20,285 bases of DNA, taken from the IMG/VR virus record IMGVR_UViG_3300020055_001144, positions 1 through 20,285 of that record; one strand, written 5' to 3'. Position numbers and translations under genes: made by a program. The notes under the pieces were generated by a model, which saw nothing but the letters and a program-made list of their open reading frames with translations, was not told where the DNA came from and searched no databases. This stretch comes from a virus. Shown in pieces: positions 421-12,316 of the stretch; positions within the stretch are counted from its first letter, which is position 1; every line of letters starts with the position of its first letter.

Positions 421-790
421 GGCAGATGCAGCCCTGATAAGAGCATATGAAGAAGAAAGAAAAATATTCAAAGATTTAGAATGGCATAATGAAGCTACAA
501 CAGGTCAGTATGTCACTTTCTGGACTTTACAAACACTCGATGTTTATAGCACATATCGTGGACTTAAGTACGACTGTGTTCGTGAAATAAATCCATTTTT
601 AGGAAGTAACCCAAGTATTGGGCAAATGGTTACTCACAAGACTATATTTTTAAATCCTTTTTATCTTCTACCAGGAGAAGGAGTGATTACAGAATATGAT
701 ATGGAATGGATAAACATAATGATGGCAACCGTTGTTCACAATAATTACAAAGTATGGGATAGAGCGCACAAAAGATGTATCAGAAGATAA
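347..790 (+). CDS. Small exported protein with signal peptide (DUF5658-like?)
   Basis: This 147-residue protein starts with a good signal peptide: MVKV, then a hydrophobic run (IMLSLAVAP), ending near LLA-YDKA (cleavage near residue 18). I prefer ATG 347 over the upstream in-frame ATG 311 because it gives the cleaner signal peptide; ATG 362 is also possible, and ATG 386 would destroy it. The mature part begins with charged helix (AQVEADAALIRAYEEERK). It then has a hydrophobic segment with LDVYSTYRGL and EINPFLG, a Dxx-ST...E-NP pattern that recalls small DUF5658-type membrane proteins, and another hydrophobic region near the C-terminus. Two Cys (YDC, RC near the end) could form a periplasmic disulfide. 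It overlaps the preceding gene by 74 nt and the cyclase by 16 nt, suggesting co-expression. Function unknown; a partner of the cyclase's outer domain is an inference. Confidence 0.65.
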   Translation: MVKVIMLSLAVAPMSLLAYDKAQVEADAALIRAYEEERKIFKDLEWHNEATTGQYVTFWTLQTLDVYSTYRGLKYDCVREINPFLGSNPSIGQMVTHKTIFLNPFYLLPGEGVITEYDMEWINIMMATVVHNNYKVWDRAHKRCIRR

Positions 791-2559
791 TAACAATAAC
801 AATATTTATGGGAATCCTAATCTGGAATCCAGGTATCATGCAAAGACTCGAACTAATTGGTTACGACTATTTGATTATGAATACCGAACCAGTGCAAAAT
901 GAAAACATATTAATAGTTGATTTAGATGAAGACTTTATAAAAAATAACGGAGGTTGGCCATTACCAAGAAGTGTTTATGGAGACTTAATCACAGAAACCT
1001 CTGGAATATCTGGAATTACAGTGCTTATGCCAAATCCAGATATCCGAGGAGCACAGCAAGATGCGTATTTTGTACTCAGATTGCCTTACAAACCAACAGT
1101 CCTTGCTTCAGCAGCATCGACACAAGTAACTGGGACAAATCCTCATGTAGGCACTGCTCAGTTAGGGGAGGACCCATTACCATGGCTATTCGAATATCCA
1201 GGAATTTTACCTACAGAACCTACGCTGGCGTTAAACGCAAAGGGACTAGGGCTAGTAACCGCTACGCCGGAAATAGACGGGGTTACGCGTCGTATTCCCC
1301 TAGTCGTAAACGTGCAGTCAAAACTTTACCCGAGTTTCGCCTTGGAACTCTTAAGAGTCGCAGTAGACGATCCTTCGTACCAGCTAAAAACAACACCAGA
1401 AGGCGTGCAATGGGTTAGAGTCCCTAGTTACCCTTTAATGAATACAGATGCGAATGGTCGTATCTTTTTAAACTGGAATACAAAATTTTACAAACAAACA
1501 GGACTGGAGTTTATGGAAAATCCTATACAAGCTCCCTTTGTTATATTCGGCACGACTGCAGAGGGTATAACAAACCCTGTGCCGACCCCTGCGGGGGCTA
1601 AATACCCACATGAAATACAAGCAAACATTTTACATAATCTTATTACTGGTAGTGCTCCTTCTACCCCTACTTGGTCTCTTGGAGCTGAGCTGGCAGGAGG
1701 ATTATTTGCATTACTACTTATTGCAATCGCATCAAGGTCTATTTGGTATTCCGTACCTACTTTAATATTAATAGTAGGTGGGTCACTATATGGAGCCTGG
1801 TATAGTTATCAATCTTCTTATTTGTTTGACGTCAGCGGAATCGTAATTATCTCCATTTTGTTTTGGAGTATTCATACATTCCTGAGTTTCTTATCCGAGT
1901 ATCGTCAGAAACTTCGAATCAAACAACAATTCGGGACATACGTAAGTCCAGACTTAGTGAAAAAATTACAAGAAGACCCAAGTTTACTGAGATTGGGTGG
2001 GTTAACTTCACGACTCACTTTTCTTTTTTCGGATATTCGAGGATTTACCCCGATCTCGGAAAAATACCAGAAGAATCCACAAGGACTTACTACTCTGATT
2101 AATCGTTTTCTTGACAATCAGACTGAGATTATTCTCAAGCATGGAGGAACAATAGATAAATATATGGGAGATTGCATCATGGCATTTTGGGGTGCGCCAT
2201 GTCCAGACGAGAATCATGTTGAAAATGCAACAAAGGCAGCTCTCGAAATGAGAGTGGCATTGGGAGAATTGAATGAAAGACTCGCAGAAGAAGGCCTGGA
2301 TCAAATTAATACAGGAGCGGGCATCAACACGGGAGACTGTGTCGTCGGAAACTTTGGCAGTAGTACTCGTTTTGATTACAGTGTCCTTGGTGATAGTGTC
2401 AATCTAGCCGCTAGACTAGAGTCTAGTTGTAAAGAATATGACGCAGATTTAATTATATCCGAGTACAGTTTAGTAGATGGTTATGACTACGAATTTCTTG
2501 ACGAGGTAACTGTCAAAGGTAAGTCAGAGCCTGTAAAAATCTATACCATACGAAAATAA
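775..2559 (+). CDS. CHASE2 sensor - class III adenylate/guanylate cyclase
   Basis: This 594-residue membrane protein would make cAMP (or cGMP) from ATP (or GTP) in the cytoplasm under control of an extracytoplasmic CHASE2 domain. An N-terminal membrane segment (about residues 4-18) leads to CHASE2 (about 28-300), with GGWPLPRSVYGDLI near residue 60 and DGVTRRIPLV, both typical of the family. Three closely spaced membrane helices follow (about 303-375), then a linker helix (RIKQQFGTYVSPDLVKKL) and the catalytic domain. Metal-binding Asp are D420 (FSDIRGFT) and D466 (DKYMGD). K462 is the purine-binding Lys, the partner position is S536 (FDYSVLGDS), and N543 and R547 are the transition-state residues in VNLAARLE. 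Ser at position 536 instead of Asp fits class IIIb. All the catalytic residues checked are present, so it should be active. It overlaps the exported protein gene by 16 nt. ATP is more likely than GTP, but specificity cannot be read with certainty. Confidence 0.95.
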   Translation: MYQKIITITIFMGILIWNPGIMQRLELIGYDYLIMNTEPVQNENILIVDLDEDFIKNNGGWPLPRSVYGDLITETSGISGITVLMPNPDIRGAQQDAYFVLRLPYKPTVLASAASTQVTGTNPHVGTAQLGEDPLPWLFEYPGILPTEPTLALNAKGLGLVTATPEIDGVTRRIPLVVNVQSKLYPSFALELLRVAVDDPSYQLKTTPEGVQWVRVPSYPLMNTDANGRIFLNWNTKFYKQTGLEFMENPIQAPFVIFGTTAEGITNPVPTPAGAKYPHEIQANILHNLITGSAPSTPTWSLGAELAGGLFALLLIAIASRSIWYSVPTLILIVGGSLYGAWYSYQSSYLFDVSGIVIISILFWSIHTFLSFLSEYRQKLRIKQQFGTYVSPDLVKKLQEDPSLLRLGGLTSRLTFLFSDIRGFTPISEKYQKNPQGLTTLINRFLDNQTEIILKHGGTIDKYMGDCIMAFWGAPCPDENHVENATKAALEMRVALGELNERLAEEGLDQINTGAGINTGDCVVGNFGSSTRFDYSVLGDSVNLAARLESSCKEYDADLIISEYSLVDGYDYEFLDEVTVKGKSEPVKIYTIRK

Positions 2560-3026: not shown

Positions 3027-3166
3027 AAGAAGCTTTGAAAAAAGCTGTGGAGAAGTCAGAAGAAACAAACGAAGCTCCAGAACTATCAGGCAGAGTTAAA
3101 AAACTACTCGCAAGAAAAAGAAATTTACAGAGAAAAACCCACAATCCAAAGCGTAGTAGAAAGTGA
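3011..3166 (+). CDS. 51-residue basic helical protein
   Basis: ATG 3011 lies inside the end of the preceding gene and the frame runs to TGA 3164-3166. The product begins MANEIKEALKKAVEKSEE, an amphipathic helix. It ends in a strongly basic tail (KKLLARKRNLQRKTH... RSRK). It bridges two genes without leaving a gap: its stop overlaps the GTG start of the next gene in a GTGA junction, which argues that it is translated. The basic tail suggests nucleic-acid binding. Family not recognised. Confidence 0.6.
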   Translation: MANEIKEALKKAVEKSEETNEAPELSGRVKKLLARKRNLQRKTHNPKRSRK

Positions 3167-3669
3167 TTTCAAAACAACGACTAGAGGAAGAATATATTTG
3201 GGTTCATAAAAATACTACTACAATGAGTGGCGGTACTACTATGAAACAAAAGGATAAAATACACGATATTATTCGTAAAGTAAAACCTTTTAGTGTATTA
3301 GATTTTGGGTCTGGAAAAGGTTTACAATATAGTAAACATGAAGTTCACAAAGAATGGGGAATACCAAAACCAACTCTTTATGACCCTTATGTAAAAGGTA
3401 TAGATAAATTACCAGCAGTAGGAACAAAATATTACGATTTAGTACTATGTGTAGATGTGATGGAACACATACTACCAGAAGAAGTAGACGAAATACTACA
3501 TTCAGTTTTCTTCTTTGGAAATTTTATATATTTTCACATTGATACTAAACCAGCATTAAAGAAATTTAGTTGTGGTACTAACTTTCATGTCAGTCTACAC
3601 CCCAAAGAGTGGTGGATTGATAAATTACAAGAGTTCGGAGATAATTTCCATGCGGACTTCGAAGAATAA
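3163..3669 (+). CDS. Small class I SAM-dependent methyltransferase-like protein
   Basis: This 168-residue protein carries motif I of class I methyltransferases (VLDFGSGKGLQYS, about residues 45-57). It also has a motif II/III-like segment, YYDLVLCVDVMEHILPEEV (about 90-108), in which D-x-MEH is the usual pattern of Methyltransf_11/23-type enzymes. A hydrophobic strand (GNFIYFHID) and LHPKEWWIDKL follow, resembling the late strands of the fold. It is shorter than most cellular enzymes but of ordinary size for phage versions. The substrate is unknown. The GTG start at 3163 overlaps the previous stop; in-frame ATGs lie at 3223 and 3241, just before motif I. It sits with a glycosyltransferase-like gene, so modification of a small molecule, glycan or protein is as likely as DNA. 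Confidence 0.8.
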   Translation: MISKQRLEEEYIWVHKNTTTMSGGTTMKQKDKIHDIIRKVKPFSVLDFGSGKGLQYSKHEVHKEWGIPKPTLYDPYVKGIDKLPAVGTKYYDLVLCVDVMEHILPEEVDEILHSVFFFGNFIYFHIDTKPALKKFSCGTNFHVSLHPKEWWIDKLQEFGDNFHADFEE

Positions 3670-4026: not shown

Positions 4027-4878
4027 ATGAAGAAAAAAGTACTTGTACTTGTAGCAGACGATAATTATATAGAACACTGTAAAGCAGTAATTCATTCAGC
4101 AGTAACAGTAGGCAAATGGGATGGCGACATAAGAGTGATTGTACCCCTCGGCACTACACTGCCAAGTGACTTTAAACACGAAGTATTTGAAGTCGAAATG
4201 CATACTACTGAAAATAGGTATAATAAATTTTTCCTTTTTCACGATTATTTTAAAAAGTGGGATTGGATATTTTATACTGACTTAGATGTTTTATTTATTG
4301 ATAAAATAGAATTAGATTTAGAAAAAAGGGATACTCGATACTTGTATGCTAATCCTGATGGAAATAAAGACATACAATATCAATACAAAATTCGATTGTG
4401 GGAATTAAAAAACATGATGGAATTTGTAACAAGCGCTGTTCATAGTCCTGGACAAATAGCACTACGAACAGGTTGGTTAGATTTAATTAATTTAAAACCT
4501 AATCAACAAGCATTTCAATCTTGTTTTATGCTTTTTAATAGAAGATTAATAGCAGCAAAAACTTTTAGAAGATTGATAGATGCAGCATGGAGTCTAAACC
4601 CTTTTGTAAAATTTGAAGACCAGGGTATATTTAATACAGTTTTACATGATAAATGGAAACCTTTATCAAACAAATTTGAAAACAGATGTCCAGTGTTAGA
4701 CCAAATAGATTGGCACTATCACAAAATACATGAAGTAGATGGACACTGGGACAGAAATGAATATGAAGATATGTGTGCTATTCATTTCTTTAGATACTTT
4801 ACACCATGGATGCCACAGAATAAAAAATGGTACCCCGTGTATAGAGAACACTTAGAAGGGTATGAACAATTATTTTAA
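4027..4878 (+). CDS. GT8-like glycosyltransferase
   Basis: The 283-residue protein starts with a Rossmann-like strand (KKVLVLVADDNYIEHC). It has the GT-A layout: YNKFFLFHDYF..WDWIFYTDLDVLF (about residues 65-90), where D85-x-D87 is the metal/nucleotide-sugar DxD motif. Next come QSCFMLFNRRLI (the acceptor-side 'fN.g.m' region of GT8 enzymes), FEDQGIFNTVL, and a late CAIHFFRYFTPW that matches the C-terminal His region. It would transfer a sugar from a nucleotide-sugar to an unknown acceptor in the cytoplasm: a virion protein, hydroxylated base or cell-surface glycan. No signal peptide or membrane segment. It has its own RBS and a structured leader just upstream. Confidence 0.8.
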   Translation: MKKKVLVLVADDNYIEHCKAVIHSAVTVGKWDGDIRVIVPLGTTLPSDFKHEVFEVEMHTTENRYNKFFLFHDYFKKWDWIFYTDLDVLFIDKIELDLEKRDTRYLYANPDGNKDIQYQYKIRLWELKNMMEFVTSAVHSPGQIALRTGWLDLINLKPNQQAFQSCFMLFNRRLIAAKTFRRLIDAAWSLNPFVKFEDQGIFNTVLHDKWKPLSNKFENRCPVLDQIDWHYHKIHEVDGHWDRNEYEDMCAIHFFRYFTPWMPQNKKWYPVYREHLEGYEQLF

Positions 4879-5302: not shown

Positions 5303-5503
5303 ATGGCAGTCAAAAGACGAAGAAAGACCGCTAAAAAACGTCCAGTACCTACAAATCCTACTCTATATGCGAGAGTAAAAGCAGAAGCAAAGAGGAAATT
5401 TAAGGTATATCCATCAGCGTACGCTAATGGTTGGTTAGTAAAAACTTACAAAGCCCGAGGCGGAAAGTATCGAATGGGTACTGGCCGTAAAAGGAGGAAG
5501 TAA
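5303..5503 (+). CDS. Basic small protein, DUF5872-like (KVYPSAYANGWLVK)
   Basis: This 66-residue protein has a basic N-terminus (MAVKRRRKTAKKRP), then NPTLYARVKAEAKRKFKVYPSAYANGWLVKTYKARGGKYR, then a GRKRRK tail. The central KFKVYPSAYANGWLVK.YKARGG block is a strongly conserved motif in phages and giant viruses, usually annotated as a domain of unknown function (DUF5872, name from memory). Virion or DNA association is plausible from its charge and its place among structural genes, but not proven. The RBS is AGGGGGAG, with a one-base overlap with the next gene (TAATG). Confidence 0.85.
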   Translation: MAVKRRRKTAKKRPVPTNPTLYARVKAEAKRKFKVYPSAYANGWLVKTYKARGGKYRMGTGRKRRK

Positions 5504-5790
5504 TGGCACGAAAACCAAGCGGAGGACTTACCAAGTGGTTTAGAGAGGGGTGGGTAGACATCTCTCGAAAAAGAAAAGGTGGAGGACATCCACCTTGCGG
5601 TAGAAAGTCAGCAAGAGGTAGTAAAGCTGGAGGATATCCAAAATGTGTTCCTGCAAGTAAAGCCGCTAGAATGACAAAAGCGCAAAAGCGTTCTGCCGTA
5701 ACAAGAAAAAGAAGAGCAGGAAATCCAGGTGGTAAGCCTAGAAATGTTGCTACTTTTGCAAAACGAGGTAGAAAGAAAAAAAGGAGGTAA
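5503..5790 (+). CDS. Basic protein with GLTKWF..WVDISR / PKCVPASKAARM motif
   Basis: The 95-residue protein has SGGLTKWFREGWVDISRK at residues 6-23. It then has HPPCGRKSARGSKAGGYPKCVPASKAARMTKAQKRSAV and a Lys/Arg-rich end. The WVDISR and CGR...YPKCVPASKAARM blocks recur with the KVYPSAYANGWLVK block, sometimes as one protein, in phages and large DNA viruses. Here the two are separate genes joined by TAATG. Two Cys (CGR, KCVP) suggest metal binding. A DNA-binding, virion-packaged role is inferred from charge and context only. Confidence 0.85.
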   Translation: MARKPSGGLTKWFREGWVDISRKRKGGGHPPCGRKSARGSKAGGYPKCVPASKAARMTKAQKRSAVTRKRRAGNPGGKPRNVATFAKRGRKKKRR

Positions 5791-5792
5791 TT

Positions 5793-5993
5793 ATGAGCAA
5801 TGCTCATAAACTCAGACAAAAGTCAGAAATGGCAAATGAACTTAAAGCGATTGAAAAAACAATGGCAGAAGTAATTTTTACTCGAAGAAACAGATTAGAA
5901 AAATTAAAAAAACTGAAAGAATATATTACCATGAGGAAATGTACCTTTCGAGATAAGCAATTAAAAAAGCTTATAGGAGAATACAATGGCTAG
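5793..5993 (+). CDS. Small coiled-coil protein
   Basis: The RBS AAGGAGGTAATT sits directly before ATG 5793 and is one of the strongest in the window. The 66-residue product is almost wholly helical and charged (KLRQKSEMANELKAIEKTMAEVIF, then EKLKKLKEYI), so it probably forms a coiled coil. It ends RDKQLKKLIGEYNG. It has less positive charge than its neighbours. It overlaps the next start by 8 nt. I do not recognise the family. Confidence 0.7.
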   Translation: MSNAHKLRQKSEMANELKAIEKTMAEVIFTRRNRLEKLKKLKEYITMRKCTFRDKQLKKLIGEYNG

Positions 5994-6258
5994 AACAGGC
6001 GGATTCTTAAGCGGACCTACTGGAGTACATAGTACTCAGAAGATTCGTAAACACAGACTCAAGCGAGGAGTCACAAGAGACATGAATGCTGCAGCAGGTA
6101 CTTTAGTAAATACAAAAGATGCTTACAGTGTTGGTGCAATGAGATATGGAGCAAGACCTAAAGCAATCGGTCCTAGATTTGGCAAGACTGTTAGACCAAA
6201 ATCAGCAAGATTTGGTAGAGGCGGTGCAGGAAGAATTTTACCAAGAAGAGGTAGATAA
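5986..6258 (+). CDS. Arg/Gly-rich basic protein
   Basis: This 90-residue protein is rich in Arg, Lys and Gly. It opens GGFLSGPTGVHSTQKIRKHRLKRGVTRDM and ends RPKSARFGRGGAGRILPRRGR. It has almost no acidic residues and looks disordered apart from a short central part (YSVGAMRYGARPKAIGPRFG). Such composition fits nucleic-acid binding or packing inside a particle. The RBS TAGGAGAA is 6 bases before the ATG. Its stop overlaps the next ATG (TAATG). Confidence 0.7.
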   Translation: MARTGGFLSGPTGVHSTQKIRKHRLKRGVTRDMNAAAGTLVNTKDAYSVGAMRYGARPKAIGPRFGKTVRPKSARFGRGGAGRILPRRGR

Positions 6259-6506
6259 TGAAAGCAATACTGAGAGGTAATAAAATTATACTCAAAGGTG
6301 GACATACTGATGCTGCTTCTGCTATAAATAGTTGCAAGACTATTATGTCACATTGTCAGATGATACTTGACAATATAGATGAAAATGCAGAAATGATGCC
6401 CACTTGGTGGACAAATAAATTAGCAGTTTCAGAACACGAAGTAGTACAGGCCGCTAACGCACTAGTTAACGGATTGGATGATGACCATGGCTCTGACAGC
6501 GAGTGA
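6258..6506 (+). CDS. Small helical hypothetical protein
   Basis: The 82-residue protein begins with a short beta-hairpin-like stretch (KAILRGNKIILKGG). Helices follow (TDAASAINSCKTIMSHCQMILDNI, then AVSEHEVVQAANALVNGL) with a MMPTWWTNKL linker and an acidic tail. It is mildly acidic and stands out from the basic proteins around it, so it could be a partner that neutralises or chaperones one of them. That role is an inference. Its end overlaps the next gene by 20 nt. Confidence 0.7.
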   Translation: MKAILRGNKIILKGGHTDAASAINSCKTIMSHCQMILDNIDENAEMMPTWWTNKLAVSEHEVVQAANALVNGLDDDHGSDSE

Positions 6507-6831
6507 GAAATCTAGATTAAAACGAGCAGGACTAACTCGATTAAATAGTCCAAAAAGAACTCCTAATCATAAAACAAAGAAAGCTGTAGTAGCTGTTCGT
6601 GTTGGGGGTAAAGTAAAAATAATTAGATTCGGTGCGCAAGGCATGGGTCATAATTATAGTCCAGAAGCAAGAAAAAGTTTCAAAGCAAGACACGCTAAGA
6701 ATATTCGTAAGGGTAAATCTTCAGCAGCTTACTGGGCAAATAAAGTCTTTTGGGCAGGCAAAGGCGGTTCTAAAAAACGACCACCTAAATCCCAAAAGCA
6801 TGTTAAAGGAATTAAACGAAGAAGGAGATAA
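6487..6831 (+). CDS. Basic protein with SFKARHAKNI..AAYWANKVFW motif
   Basis: I start at ATG 6487 (MALTASEKSRLKRAGL); ATG 6478 or 6481 would add a few residues overlapping the previous gene. The 114-residue product has KVKIIRFGAQGMGHNYSPEARKSFKARHAKNI and GKSSAAYWANKVFWAG. This FGaQG...KSFKARH.KNI..GK.SAAYWANK signature is widespread in phages and large viruses as a domain of unknown function (DUF6321-like, from memory). It ends in a Lys/Arg tail. Its position near the terminase suggests a DNA-packaging or virion role, which is not demonstrated. Confidence 0.8.
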   Translation: MALTASEKSRLKRAGLTRLNSPKRTPNHKTKKAVVAVRVGGKVKIIRFGAQGMGHNYSPEARKSFKARHAKNIRKGKSSAAYWANKVFWAGKGGSKKRPPKSQKHVKGIKRRRR

Positions 6832-8808: not shown

Positions 8809-10009
8809 TTTTTTACTAGGAAGGCAAGAAAAGGATTTTGAAAAAGAAAATCCTGCTCAATATGTCATTTCTAGAGATCAAGGTATCACTATTGATACCC
8901 GTGAAAATGTCACGAATTACAGAAATGCTTACGAAACATTAGAAGTCGTAAACCGAGCAGTTAACATGATAGTGGATGACTCTGCGGAAATACCTTTTGA
9001 TGTAGGCGAAAAAATAGTTGGACTAAATTCTATTAAAAAAGACCTTAGAAGAACTAGAGTAGACTTACTTTTAAATAAAGAGCCTAATCCATTTCAAGAT
9101 GTAAGTACATTTAAAAGAAATTTGATAATTGACTTACTGATTGATGGAAATATCTTTGTTTATTTTGATGGTGCTCATCTGTACCATCTTCCAGCAGACC
9201 ATGTAACAATACATAGTGATGATAAGACATATATAGAAAAATTTACTTATGACCACAGTATTGATTACAGTCCTAGTGAGATAATTCATATCAAAGAAAA
9301 CAGTTTTAATTCTATTTATAGAGGAGTACCGAGACTAAAACCAGCTTTTAGAACCATGCAATTAATGGGAAGCATGAGAAAGTTTCAGGATAACTTCTTT
9401 AAAAATGGAGCTATACCAGGATTGGTATTAAAGTCACCAAACACTCTTTCTGAGAAAATCAAAGAAAGAATGTTACAGGCTTGGATTGCTAGATACAATC
9501 CACAGTCTGGTGGAAGAAGACCACTATTTTTAGATGGTGGGTTAGAGGTAGAAAACCTAAGTGAAATTAATTTTAAAAATTTAGATTTCCAAGAAGCTAT
9601 TAAGGATAATGAAAAAGTAATTCTTAAAGCATTAGGTATTCCACCAATTTTAATGGATAGTGGTAACAATGCAAATTTGCGACCTAACCACCGTCTTTAT
9701 TATTTAGAAACCATACTACCTATTGTTAATAAAATAGCGTATGCTTTCGAGAGATACTTCGGTTTCAAACTTGATGAGAATGTATCAGGTATTCCTGCTC
9801 TACAACCAGAGTTAAGAGACCAAGCAGGCTATTATGCCACACTTGTGAACACTGGAATAATGACACCGAATGAAGCAAGGGAGGCGTTAAGGCTTGAGAA
9901 GATCAACGGATTTGATACACCAAGAGTTCCTGCAAATATCGCAGGCTCTGCAGCAAATCCCGAAGAAGGTGGTAGACCACAAGAAACACCGCCTAGCGAG
10001 GAACAGTAA
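8795..10009 (+). CDS. Portal protein (HK97 type)
   Basis: The 404-residue protein matches the HK97-like portal family in order. The N-terminal part has TLEVVNRAVNMIVDDSAEIPF. DLLIDGNIFVYF follows, then the wing (LYHLPADHVTIHSDD). Next come HIKENSFNSIYRGVPRLKPA, the stem region (KFQDNFFKNGAIPGLVL), and LKALGIPPILMDSGNNANLRPNHRLYYLETILPIVNKI with PELRDQAGYYATLVNTGIMTPNEARE. These last blocks (GIPP, N....R.FY..ti.P, N.G..T.NE.R) are diagnostic. It forms the dodecameric ring at one head vertex through which DNA passes. The C-terminal tail is Pro/Glu-rich and probably disordered. Confidence 0.95.
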   Translation: MAWYDFLLGRQEKDFEKENPAQYVISRDQGITIDTRENVTNYRNAYETLEVVNRAVNMIVDDSAEIPFDVGEKIVGLNSIKKDLRRTRVDLLLNKEPNPFQDVSTFKRNLIIDLLIDGNIFVYFDGAHLYHLPADHVTIHSDDKTYIEKFTYDHSIDYSPSEIIHIKENSFNSIYRGVPRLKPAFRTMQLMGSMRKFQDNFFKNGAIPGLVLKSPNTLSEKIKERMLQAWIARYNPQSGGRRPLFLDGGLEVENLSEINFKNLDFQEAIKDNEKVILKALGIPPILMDSGNNANLRPNHRLYYLETILPIVNKIAYAFERYFGFKLDENVSGIPALQPELRDQAGYYATLVNTGIMTPNEAREALRLEKINGFDTPRVPANIAGSAANPEEGGRPQETPPSEEQ

Positions 10010-10272
10010 TGACAAAAGACATGATGATAAAGGCTTTGTCCGATTTTATGGTAAAAAATAAAGTTCAAACAATGGACTTAGCTGAGTACAAAAGTTATGG
10101 CAACGATGTACCTGTCAAAGACTATTTGCTTAGAAGAGCATTTGGTTCGTGGAACAGAGTATTATCACAAGTTGCTAAAAGACATCCTGTCCCAGCTCCA
10201 GTCGTTAAAAAGGAAGTGAAAAAAGTAACTCCTAAAAAGACTGTGAAAAAGGAAGTTAAAGATGTCGAATAA
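10009..10272 (+). CDS. Small protein with homing-endonuclease-associated-repeat-like motif
   Basis: The 87-residue protein has an N-terminal helical domain (residues 1-58) with YKSYGNDVPVKDYLLRRAFGSWNRVLSQV. The FGSWN..L pattern (45-49) resembles the homing-endonuclease-associated repeat, a DNA-binding add-on usually fused to HNH enzymes. A low-complexity Lys/Val/Pro tail follows (KKEVKKVTPKKTVKKEVK). If the match is right, this is a stand-alone version placed two genes after the HNH. It overlaps portal (TAATG) and the next gene. Its position between portal and protease is also where small head proteins sit. Confidence 0.6.
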   Translation: MTKDMMIKALSDFMVKNKVQTMDLAEYKSYGNDVPVKDYLLRRAFGSWNRVLSQVAKRHPVPAPVVKKEVKKVTPKKTVKKEVKDVE

Positions 10273-12316
10273 AATTTATCACTGGACGAGTACCTTCAAA
10301 ACTTTAGGCGAAACTGATGATGGTGGAATAAACATCAAAGGTTCTGCAAGTACAAATGCACTAGATAGAGCTGGCGATATTATCGAAACAGAAGCATGGA
10401 CAAAAGGCGGTTTAGAGAATTTTAAATCTAATCCAATTATTCTTTTTAACCATGACTATAATAAGCCTATCGGTAGAGCAACAAGTTTAGAAGTCACTGA
10501 CAAAGGTTTAGATATTACTGCAAAAATATCTAAAGCAGCTGGTGATATTACTCATTTAGTGAAAGATGGAGTCCTTGGAGCATTTTCTGTTGGTTTCAGA
10601 TGCAAGGATTCTGAATATATGACTGAAACCGATGGATATAAAATAAAGGACGCGGAGCTTTTCGAAGTTTCTGTAGTATCAGTGCCTTGCAACCAAGGGG
10701 CAACCTTTGGATTAGCAAAATCATTTGATTCTATGGAAGAATACAGAAGCTACCAAAAAGAAATTTTACAGGCTAACTCAACCGCAGCAGCAGACGCTGT
10801 TAAAATTGAGCAGCCAAGCGAGGAGAAATCCTCATCAACGGAGACTGATATGTCAGAAGAAAAGAAATCTCCTGAAACTTCAATCGACTTGGAAGCATTT
10901 GCAAAAAAAGTAGCAGAAGATACTGCAGCTAAGATTGCAATGAAGCAAGCCGAAGCAAAAGCAGCAGAAGAAAAAGCAAAACAAGAGCAGGCTGAAAAGC
11001 AAGCTCAAGTGGAAGCTGAAGAAAAGGCTGCTCAAGAAGCAAAACAGGAAGAGCAAAAAACAGTTATCGAAGCTGGACTATCAGGCGCTGAAAGACTAAT
11101 GGATGATGTCGAGAAAAGAGTTAACGAAAAACAAGAAGATCTTGCAAAAGTAGTTAAGGAACTCGAAAAATCATTAGCTGAGAAGTCAGAAGAAATCATG
11201 AGTATTCGTGAATCAAAAAGACATTTCTCAGACAGACAAGGTCAAGGCGACTGGAAAAAAGCTTACGAGAACGATATTATTGATGCAAAATTTGCTGGTT
11301 TAGCAACTGGTAAAGGCTGGGACAATGATTATGCAAAAGGAATAATGCAAAAAGTGAACGAACATTCAGGTGTTCAAGTATCTTCAGCTGACTTTGAGCA
11401 AATCGTTTCAACTAACATCGAAAGAGATATTCAGAACGAATTGGTATTAGCACCTCTATTTAGAGAAATCCCAATGACTTCTGCTAATATGATTATACCA
11501 ATCTTACCAGATAGCGGTTATGCTGAATTTGCTTCAGCTCAAACAGCTGCTGGTTCATCACCACATGGTAACTTAGCCTCAAGAGGCGACACTTATGGTT
11601 CACCATTTGGAGGTGTTGATTTAACAGAAAGAACTCTTTCAACTAAAAAACTTATCTCACAATCTTACTTAGGTAACGAGACTGAAGAAGATGCAATTAT
11701 GCCAATACTTCCTTTAATTAGAGAGTCAATGGTAAGATCACACGCTAGAGCAATTGAAAATGCTGTCTTAGCTGGTGACGATGCTGACGGTGCTTTTGGT
11801 ACTGGCGGTGCTTCTTTCGAAGGTCTATTACACTTAGCAAGAAATGACAGTGACTATACACAACCATCAGGAACATTTGCTTCTGGTGACAGTGTAACAG
11901 CTGCTGACTTACTTGCAATGAGAAAGAATATGGGTAAATATGGTGTTAACCCTAATGATGTTGTTTACATCGTATCACAAGATGTATACTACAATCTATT
12001 AGAAGATGCTGAGTTCCAAGATGCTAACCTAGTTGGCGACATGGCTACTAAGCTAAGTGGTGAAATCGGACAGGTATTCGGTTCAAGAGTACTATTATGT
12101 GACGAGTTCGCAACTAAAGCAGCAGGCAAATTTAACGCTATCGCAGTTTATACAAGAAACTATGTAATGCCAAGATTAAGAGGTGTTACAATTGAGTCAG
12201 ACTACGAAGTAGCTAACCAAAGAAGAGTCCTTGTGGCTTCACAAAGACTTGGTTTCATCGATTTAATTGATGGCGCAACTTCAAAATGGGCACAAATGTA
12301 TAAAGCTTCTGCTTAA
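10262..12316 (+). CDS. Fused prohead protease - scaffold - major capsid protein
   Basis: The 684-residue polyprotein holds three parts normally encoded separately. Residues 1-160 are an HK97-type prohead protease (U35): LDRAGDIIE, catalytic H64 (ILFNHDYNKPIG), S109 (GAFSVGFR) and E135 (FEVSVVSVP). Residues about 190-330 are a Glu/Lys/Ala/Gln-rich coiled coil acting as scaffold or delta domain. Residues about 365-684 are an HK97-fold capsid domain (NIERDIQNELVLAPLFREIPM; VVYIVSQDVYYNLLEDAEF; NYVMPRLRGVTIESDYEV). The protease should cut itself and the scaffold free during maturation. An internal ATG at 10850 (Met197) with its own SD could make scaffold-capsid alone. A hairpin terminator follows the gene. 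RBS GGAAG is at 10251-10255. Confidence 0.93.
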   Translation: MSNKIYHWTSTFKTLGETDDGGINIKGSASTNALDRAGDIIETEAWTKGGLENFKSNPIILFNHDYNKPIGRATSLEVTDKGLDITAKISKAAGDITHLVKDGVLGAFSVGFRCKDSEYMTETDGYKIKDAELFEVSVVSVPCNQGATFGLAKSFDSMEEYRSYQKEILQANSTAAADAVKIEQPSEEKSSSTETDMSEEKKSPETSIDLEAFAKKVAEDTAAKIAMKQAEAKAAEEKAKQEQAEKQAQVEAEEKAAQEAKQEEQKTVIEAGLSGAERLMDDVEKRVNEKQEDLAKVVKELEKSLAEKSEEIMSIRESKRHFSDRQGQGDWKKAYENDIIDAKFAGLATGKGWDNDYAKGIMQKVNEHSGVQVSSADFEQIVSTNIERDIQNELVLAPLFREIPMTSANMIIPILPDSGYAEFASAQTAAGSSPHGNLASRGDTYGSPFGGVDLTERTLSTKKLISQSYLGNETEEDAIMPILPLIRESMVRSHARAIENAVLAGDDADGAFGTGGASFEGLLHLARNDSDYTQPSGTFASGDSVTAADLLAMRKNMGKYGVNPNDVVYIVSQDVYYNLLEDAEFQDANLVGDMATKLSGEIGQVFGSRVLLCDEFATKAAGKFNAIAVYTRNYVMPRLRGVTIESDYEVANQRRVLVASQRLGFIDLIDGATSKWAQMYKASA
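10840..10852 (+). promoter_or_regulatory. Internal RBS and start inside capsid polyprotein
   Basis: GGAG (10840-10843) lies 6 bases before an in-frame ATG (10850-10852), which is Met197 of the polyprotein, exactly between the protease domain and the coiled coil. Another AGGAG is at 10821-10825. Start here would yield a 488-residue scaffold-capsid product, as lambda makes Nu3 from inside gene C. Inferred from sequence only. Confidence 0.6.

Follow-up and report, generated by a model that had tools for sequence, protein, structure and literature searches.

A predicted nested capsid start inside a conserved RNA structure of a phage protease-scaffold-capsid fusion gene

Analysis of a 20,285-nucleotide stretch of viral DNA (IMG/VR record IMGVR_UViG_3300020055_001144, positions 1 to 20,285; hereafter the window) revealed one open reading frame encoding a prohead protease, a delta scaffold and an HK97-fold capsid protein. 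The explanation proposed here is that this single frame has two translation starts, the second being a nested, ancestral capsid start embedded in a conserved RNA leader. Taken as a whole, this explanation is considered highly probable, and the features on which it is built are listed in Table 1.

Table 1. Features of the fused gene and its internal start (positions in the window)
Feature	Position	Strand	Details and evidence
Fused ORF	10262..12316	+	684 aa; prohead protease, linker, delta scaffold and HK97-fold MCP
Peptidase_S78 (prohead protease) domain	10358..10735	+	Residues 33-158; Pfam PF04586, E 3e-16
Block of synonymous-site constraint	10751..10882	+	Codons ~164-207; observed/expected ~0.25, z to -9.9
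Hairpin P1	10771..10815	+	GGCT-aa-CTCAA...TTGAG-c-AGCC, inner stem CAGC/GCTG; RNAalifold, pair counts
Hairpin P2	10820..10833	+	GAGGA-gaaa-TCCTC; 5' arm is the 'second AGGAG'
Shine-Dalgarno (SD) motif of internal start	10840..10843	+	GGAG; also 5' arm of weak stem P3
Internal in-frame ATG (Met197)	10850..10852	+	ATG in 282/282 distinct relatives among the matches listed
Predicted nested product	10850..12316	+	488 aa, delta scaffold and capsid; aligns with the entire separate T5-like MCP gene
3' arm of possible SD-pairing stem P3	10869..10872	+	CTCC; weak support
Delta (scaffold) helical region	10889..11251	+	~residues 210-330; AlphaFold2 helices 210-289, 294-320
HK97-fold capsid domain	11471..12253	+	Residues 404-664; Pfam PF05065, E 4e-7

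Both Pfam domains of the fusion score above the gathering threshold, the protease domain with 60.3 bits (cut-off 21) and the capsid domain with 30.1 bits (cut-off 24.2). In the AlphaFold2 model, the confidence of which is low for the capsid part, the protease domain folds to about residue 172, residues 172-210 have a pLDDT of about 30, and a long helix occupies residues 210-289. According to this model, residues 172-210 are a disordered linker joining the protease domain to the delta scaffold, and the long helix fits the latter. Met197 is located between the domains, since this segment of low pLDDT separates the protease domain from the helix. Upstream of the fusion, between the portal and protease genes, an ORF of 87 aa with a Lys-rich tail (10009-10272, plus strand) takes the position of the T5-like pb10 decoration gene; it has no Pfam match.

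The internal start consists of the SD motif, a gap of six bases and an ATG that shares its frame with the full-length start at 10262, and its product would begin with MSEEKKSPETS. The earlier note had described this signal as lying at the domain boundary, which is confirmed by the sequence, Pfam and AlphaFold2. The arrangement GGAG-N6-ATG occurs 11 times in the window, while 1.63 occurrences are expected from shuffled sequences and none of 100 shuffles reaches 11. It is a usual start signal for this phage, because seven of the 11 occurrences open listed ORFs (starting at 2838, 5503, 5793, 5986, 6834, 14573 and 15048). Mean pairing with the anti-SD amounts to -6.7 kcal/mol at the internal start and -6.8 kcal/mol at the full-length start, as compared with -2.0 kcal/mol at other in-frame ATGs. 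Initiation at ATG 10850 is very likely. The cost of opening the site is 7.3 kcal/mol for the internal start versus 5.7 kcal/mol for the full-length one, the internal site being slightly less open. SD strength by itself does not predict an excess of the short product. The proposal that few full-length chains are made along with many short ones is plausible and finds no support here, given the equal SD energies and the slightly higher opening cost of the internal site.

Related fusions were collected from IMG/VR and GTDB as the best 80 loci per query ranked by similarity, mostly metagenome contigs, and removal of duplicates left at least 282 distinct sequences ranging from near-identical to 38% protein identity. 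Because loci chosen in this way are related to each other, counts of relatives are not independent and the sample is incomplete. As in the window, protease and MCP are encoded by a single ORF in all 282 distinct relatives among the matches listed (38-100% protein identity), and every one of these also carries an ATG at the boundary, preceded by an SD-type motif (GGAG, AGGAG or AGGA) at a spacing of 6-9. Conservation of SD and ATG at the boundary of related fusions had been put forward as a check on the nested start; both are kept by 282 of the 282 relatives listed, down to 38% identity. Relatives L146-L148 came from a second scan of cellular genomes, the first scan having given none, and the ATG of L148 was read directly from the sequence, the alignment being off by two columns there. 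In 29 diverse fusions E194, M197 and S198 never change, whereas the linker around them is variable for the most part, including by insertions and deletions. A lone relative, L283 (ORF beginning at 2854), has an in-frame TGA in the protease part (GF*VKD) and an intact internal start. Judging from its sequence, L283 could still make the capsid protein; the TGA could also be a sequencing error. It was rejected as a split gene, since its protease part is interrupted by one TGA only and the internal start is retained.

Comparison with phages in which the two proteins are encoded separately bears on the origin of this start. T5-like phages (Demerecviridae) carry the same gene order of portal, small gene, protease, MCP and head completion, and the proteins are homologous, with 38-39% identity; however, their protease and MCP are encoded by two genes 7-26 nt apart, whereas here there is one fused ORF. 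In six T5-like phages the start of the separate MCP aligns with Met197, and the simplest reading of this alignment is that the nested ORF represents the old capsid gene, whose start signal was kept after fusion. In T5, the protease pb11 cleaves the N-terminal scaffolding domain from the head protein (PMC5292684).

A second fused lineage is represented by Pseudomonas phage IME307, the single-gene fusion of which is 27% identical; here an in-frame ATG at the boundary follows AGGAGG at a distance of seven bases. Seven further relatives of this type, located on plasmids and 41-51% identical, have an in-frame boundary start (6 ATG, 1 GTG) with an SD-like motif, so that such a start is present in all eight members. 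In Acinetobacter and Moraxella relatives of this lineage a separate capsid gene begins at the boundary. A single gene is said to encode protease, scaffold and MCP in MD8-like Pseudomonas phages (PMC8508860), and IME307 presumably belongs to this MD8 type, which combines the three functions in one ORF, as here, in a different lineage. The terms 'internal' and 'start codon' are absent from the text of the MD8 paper (PMC8508860). Judged from both lineages, protease-capsid fusions seem as a rule to retain a capsid start in their interior. The idea of a nested start for a scaffold-capsid protein without protease, advanced in the earlier note, thus gains support at the sequence level from the universal SD and ATG among the relatives listed, the homologous start of the T5-like gene and the second lineage.

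The HK97 genes gp4 and gp5 likewise encode an S78 protease and a capsid protein whose N-terminal domain is a delta scaffold; these are separate adjacent genes, with no fusion and no nested start. In the C/Nu3 system of phage lambda, a scaffold product lacking the protease arises from an in-frame start within the gene, downstream of the protease domain. The resemblance to Nu3 noticed earlier extends to the in-frame start and SD between the protease and scaffold parts. It does not extend to the product, since the short product of lambda is scaffold only, with capsid protein E encoded by a separate gene, whereas the short product here would comprise scaffold and capsid; for this reason the arrangement differs from that of lambda. 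The C and Nu3 proteins have been described (PMC3224144).

Nucleotide conservation around the internal start extends beyond the signal itself. The constraint block contains the deepest synonymous-change windows of the whole gene, with about one quarter of the expected changes, and the constraint starts about 95 nt upstream of the ATG, beyond the needs of an SD. Two weaker synonymous dips are present elsewhere in the fusion, at codons ~254-262 (~11021-11047) and at codon 590 (~12029). The earlier note had recognised the start signal and overlooked the conserved RNA fold around it. RNAalifold applied to the codon alignment gives three elements, P1, P2 and P3, which together span positions 10771-10875. 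In a 45-sequence MAFFT alignment standard pairs are found in 94.4% of the pair cells versus 29-44% with slid partners. In P1, double changes from G-C to A-U are found in L138 and in the L328/L333/L334 group, and in distant relatives its sequence differs while the shape is the same. The stem of P2 takes the forms GAGGA/TCCTC, GGGC/GCCC, GGGA/TCCC, GACGG/CCGTT, GAGG/CCTC, ACAGTC/GACTGT, GCAGAC/GTCTGC and others, and its loops are variable among relatives. At least 26 changes in this stem were counted on the tree of the capsid part, and the hairpin was never lost. Comparative sequence analysis thus establishes P1 and P2 as RNA hairpins kept by compensatory changes. The AGGAG at 10821-10825, previously regarded as a second SD, is in fact the 5' arm of P2; it is located 25 nt from the ATG, and it is conserved as part of a hairpin and not as a sequence.

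Of 102 representatives, 98% have a hairpin as strong as P2 located 3-10 nt upstream of the SD; among synonymous shuffles the figure is 33%, and elsewhere in these genes it is 4-58%. A simple z-test of P2 against synonymous shuffles gave about 7.4 and was set aside, as one control position reached 6.0 owing to the relatedness of the sequences; the tree count and the position profile were used instead. A short hairpin was also observed about 265 codons after Met197, in the capsid part, in 58% of sequences versus 19% of synonymous shuffles. Among 45 windows along the gene, the folding z-score is lowest for the region that ends at the ATG. In the window, the end of P2 lies 16 nt before ATG 10850, where the footprint of an initiating ribosome has its 5' edge.

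The third element, P3, may pair the SD with CTCC. In the first set of sequences this arm (codons 203-204) is free of synonymous change, and the pairing is broken in 4 of 33 sequences (A3); in some distant relatives with AGGA as the SD, a different predicted stem covers the SD. A covariance model of the element (R1), built from 33 sequences, recovers diverged fusions at E-values, which are rough, of 1e-4 to 1e-17. Neither another strong copy in the window nor a match in six T5-like loci was found with it. In L344 and others R1 also matches weakly at the full-length start of the fusion; these matches fall within Ala/Lys/Pro-rich repeats and were judged to be due to chance and rejected as a second copy of the RNA. 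A search against Rfam 15 gave no matches at gathering score in the window, and merely chance-level ones around 10700-10960.

From these data we infer a course of events that covers translation at the internal site, the relative amounts of the two products, their co-assembly, the direction in which the genes fused and the role of the RNA. Initiation at 10262 would yield a 684-residue protease-delta-capsid chain, while the internal SD and ATG (10840/10850) would yield a 488-residue delta-capsid chain. The two could co-assemble, because the scaffold and capsid parts are common to both, and the prohead would thereby receive some protease. Co-assembly into the same prohead is suggested by analogy with HK97 and T5. 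In those phages the scaffold domain is cut off by the protease, and here too the protease would remove the delta domains, and presumably itself. The internal start would be that of the ancestral separate capsid gene, retained after fusion. The leader formed by P1, P2 and the weaker P3 shares its nucleotides with the coding sequence and most likely determines or regulates how often internal initiation occurs, for which it might keep the site open, couple it to ribosomes translating the protease, bind a protein or protect a processed mRNA end. A more specific and tentative reading, plausible without being probable, is that a widespread cis-acting RNA within the coding sequence controls internal translation of the MCP, possibly through binding of a phage protein or through coupling to protease-translating ribosomes, and in this way determines how much protease the prohead receives relative to capsid.

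Two other explanations concern how the start is used, and both appear rather unlikely. The SD and ATG could serve mainly on a separate, shorter mRNA, generated by a processing site, a protected 5' end or an internal promoter, so that the ratio would be set at the RNA level. Such an mRNA would account for a constraint that extends upstream of the ATG by about 95 nt, farther than an SD would require, and for the two stable hairpins immediately 5' of the SD, a placement that resembles 5'-stabilising structures. However, the block lacks a conserved -10-like element, and a conserved sigma-70-like promoter at TTAAAATT, upstream of P2, was rejected since codons 181-182 vary; the stems also seem short for RNase III. 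Comparably doubtful is the possibility that the RNA is a regulator. In that case P1/P2 would be bound by some protein of the phage or the host, such as the capsid, scaffold or protease precursor, and binding would either repress the internal start or free it, providing feedback on capsid synthesis. The retention of the fold despite large sequence change is consistent with such a function, as is the potential of P3 to mask the SD, but the variable loops disfavour a sequence-specific loop contact, and P3 is kept in some relatives and broken in others.

Compared with these, it is very improbable that the start is an unused relic of a recent gene fusion. The separate capsid genes of T5-like relatives do begin at the same point, but full retention of the SD and ATG down to 38% identity, together with the strong synonymous constraint, needs continuing selection. 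An overlapping gene in another frame as the cause of the conserved nucleotides has practically no likelihood and is refuted by stop codons, for although the window contains a 62-aa ORF in the +1 frame (10725-10913), the alternative frames are not conserved, the +1 frame being open in 80 of the 282 listed relatives, the +2 frame in none and the antisense frames in 1, 91 and 0.

Some other genes of the contig are also of note. A gene at 775-2559 (plus strand) encodes CHASE2 and adenylate/guanylate cyclase domains and represents a phage-encoded nucleotide cyclase. Its relatives are common in IMG/VR, several of them on contigs that also bear the protease-capsid fusion, and are found in Pelagibacter phage HTVC008M and Methylophilales phages (36-39%). 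A glycosyltransferase family 8-like gene (4027-4878, plus strand) and a weakly methyltransferase-like gene (3163-3669, plus strand), at and below the Pfam cut-off, respectively, precede the packaging genes. Upstream of the terminase gene lies a run of short ORFs of 66-117 aa, very rich in Arg and Lys (5303-6831, plus strand), the sequences of which look like small basic DNA-binding proteins.

Single-gene fusions of protease, scaffold and capsid are already known (PMC8508860). No report of a nested start in protease-capsid fusions, or of the P1-P2-P3 RNA, was found in the open-access literature, a result that is weak evidence of absence.

Fusion of protease and capsid protein raises the question of how a phage avoids having one protease per capsid subunit, and a nested start at the boundary would be a simple answer. 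It implies that annotations of protease-capsid fusion genes with a single product are incomplete. The presence of a covarying RNA outside Rfam suggests that RNA structure tunes the ratio of the products in phages common in marine metagenomes, and that the coding sequences of phages can conceal RNA regulatory elements missed by gene-based surveys.
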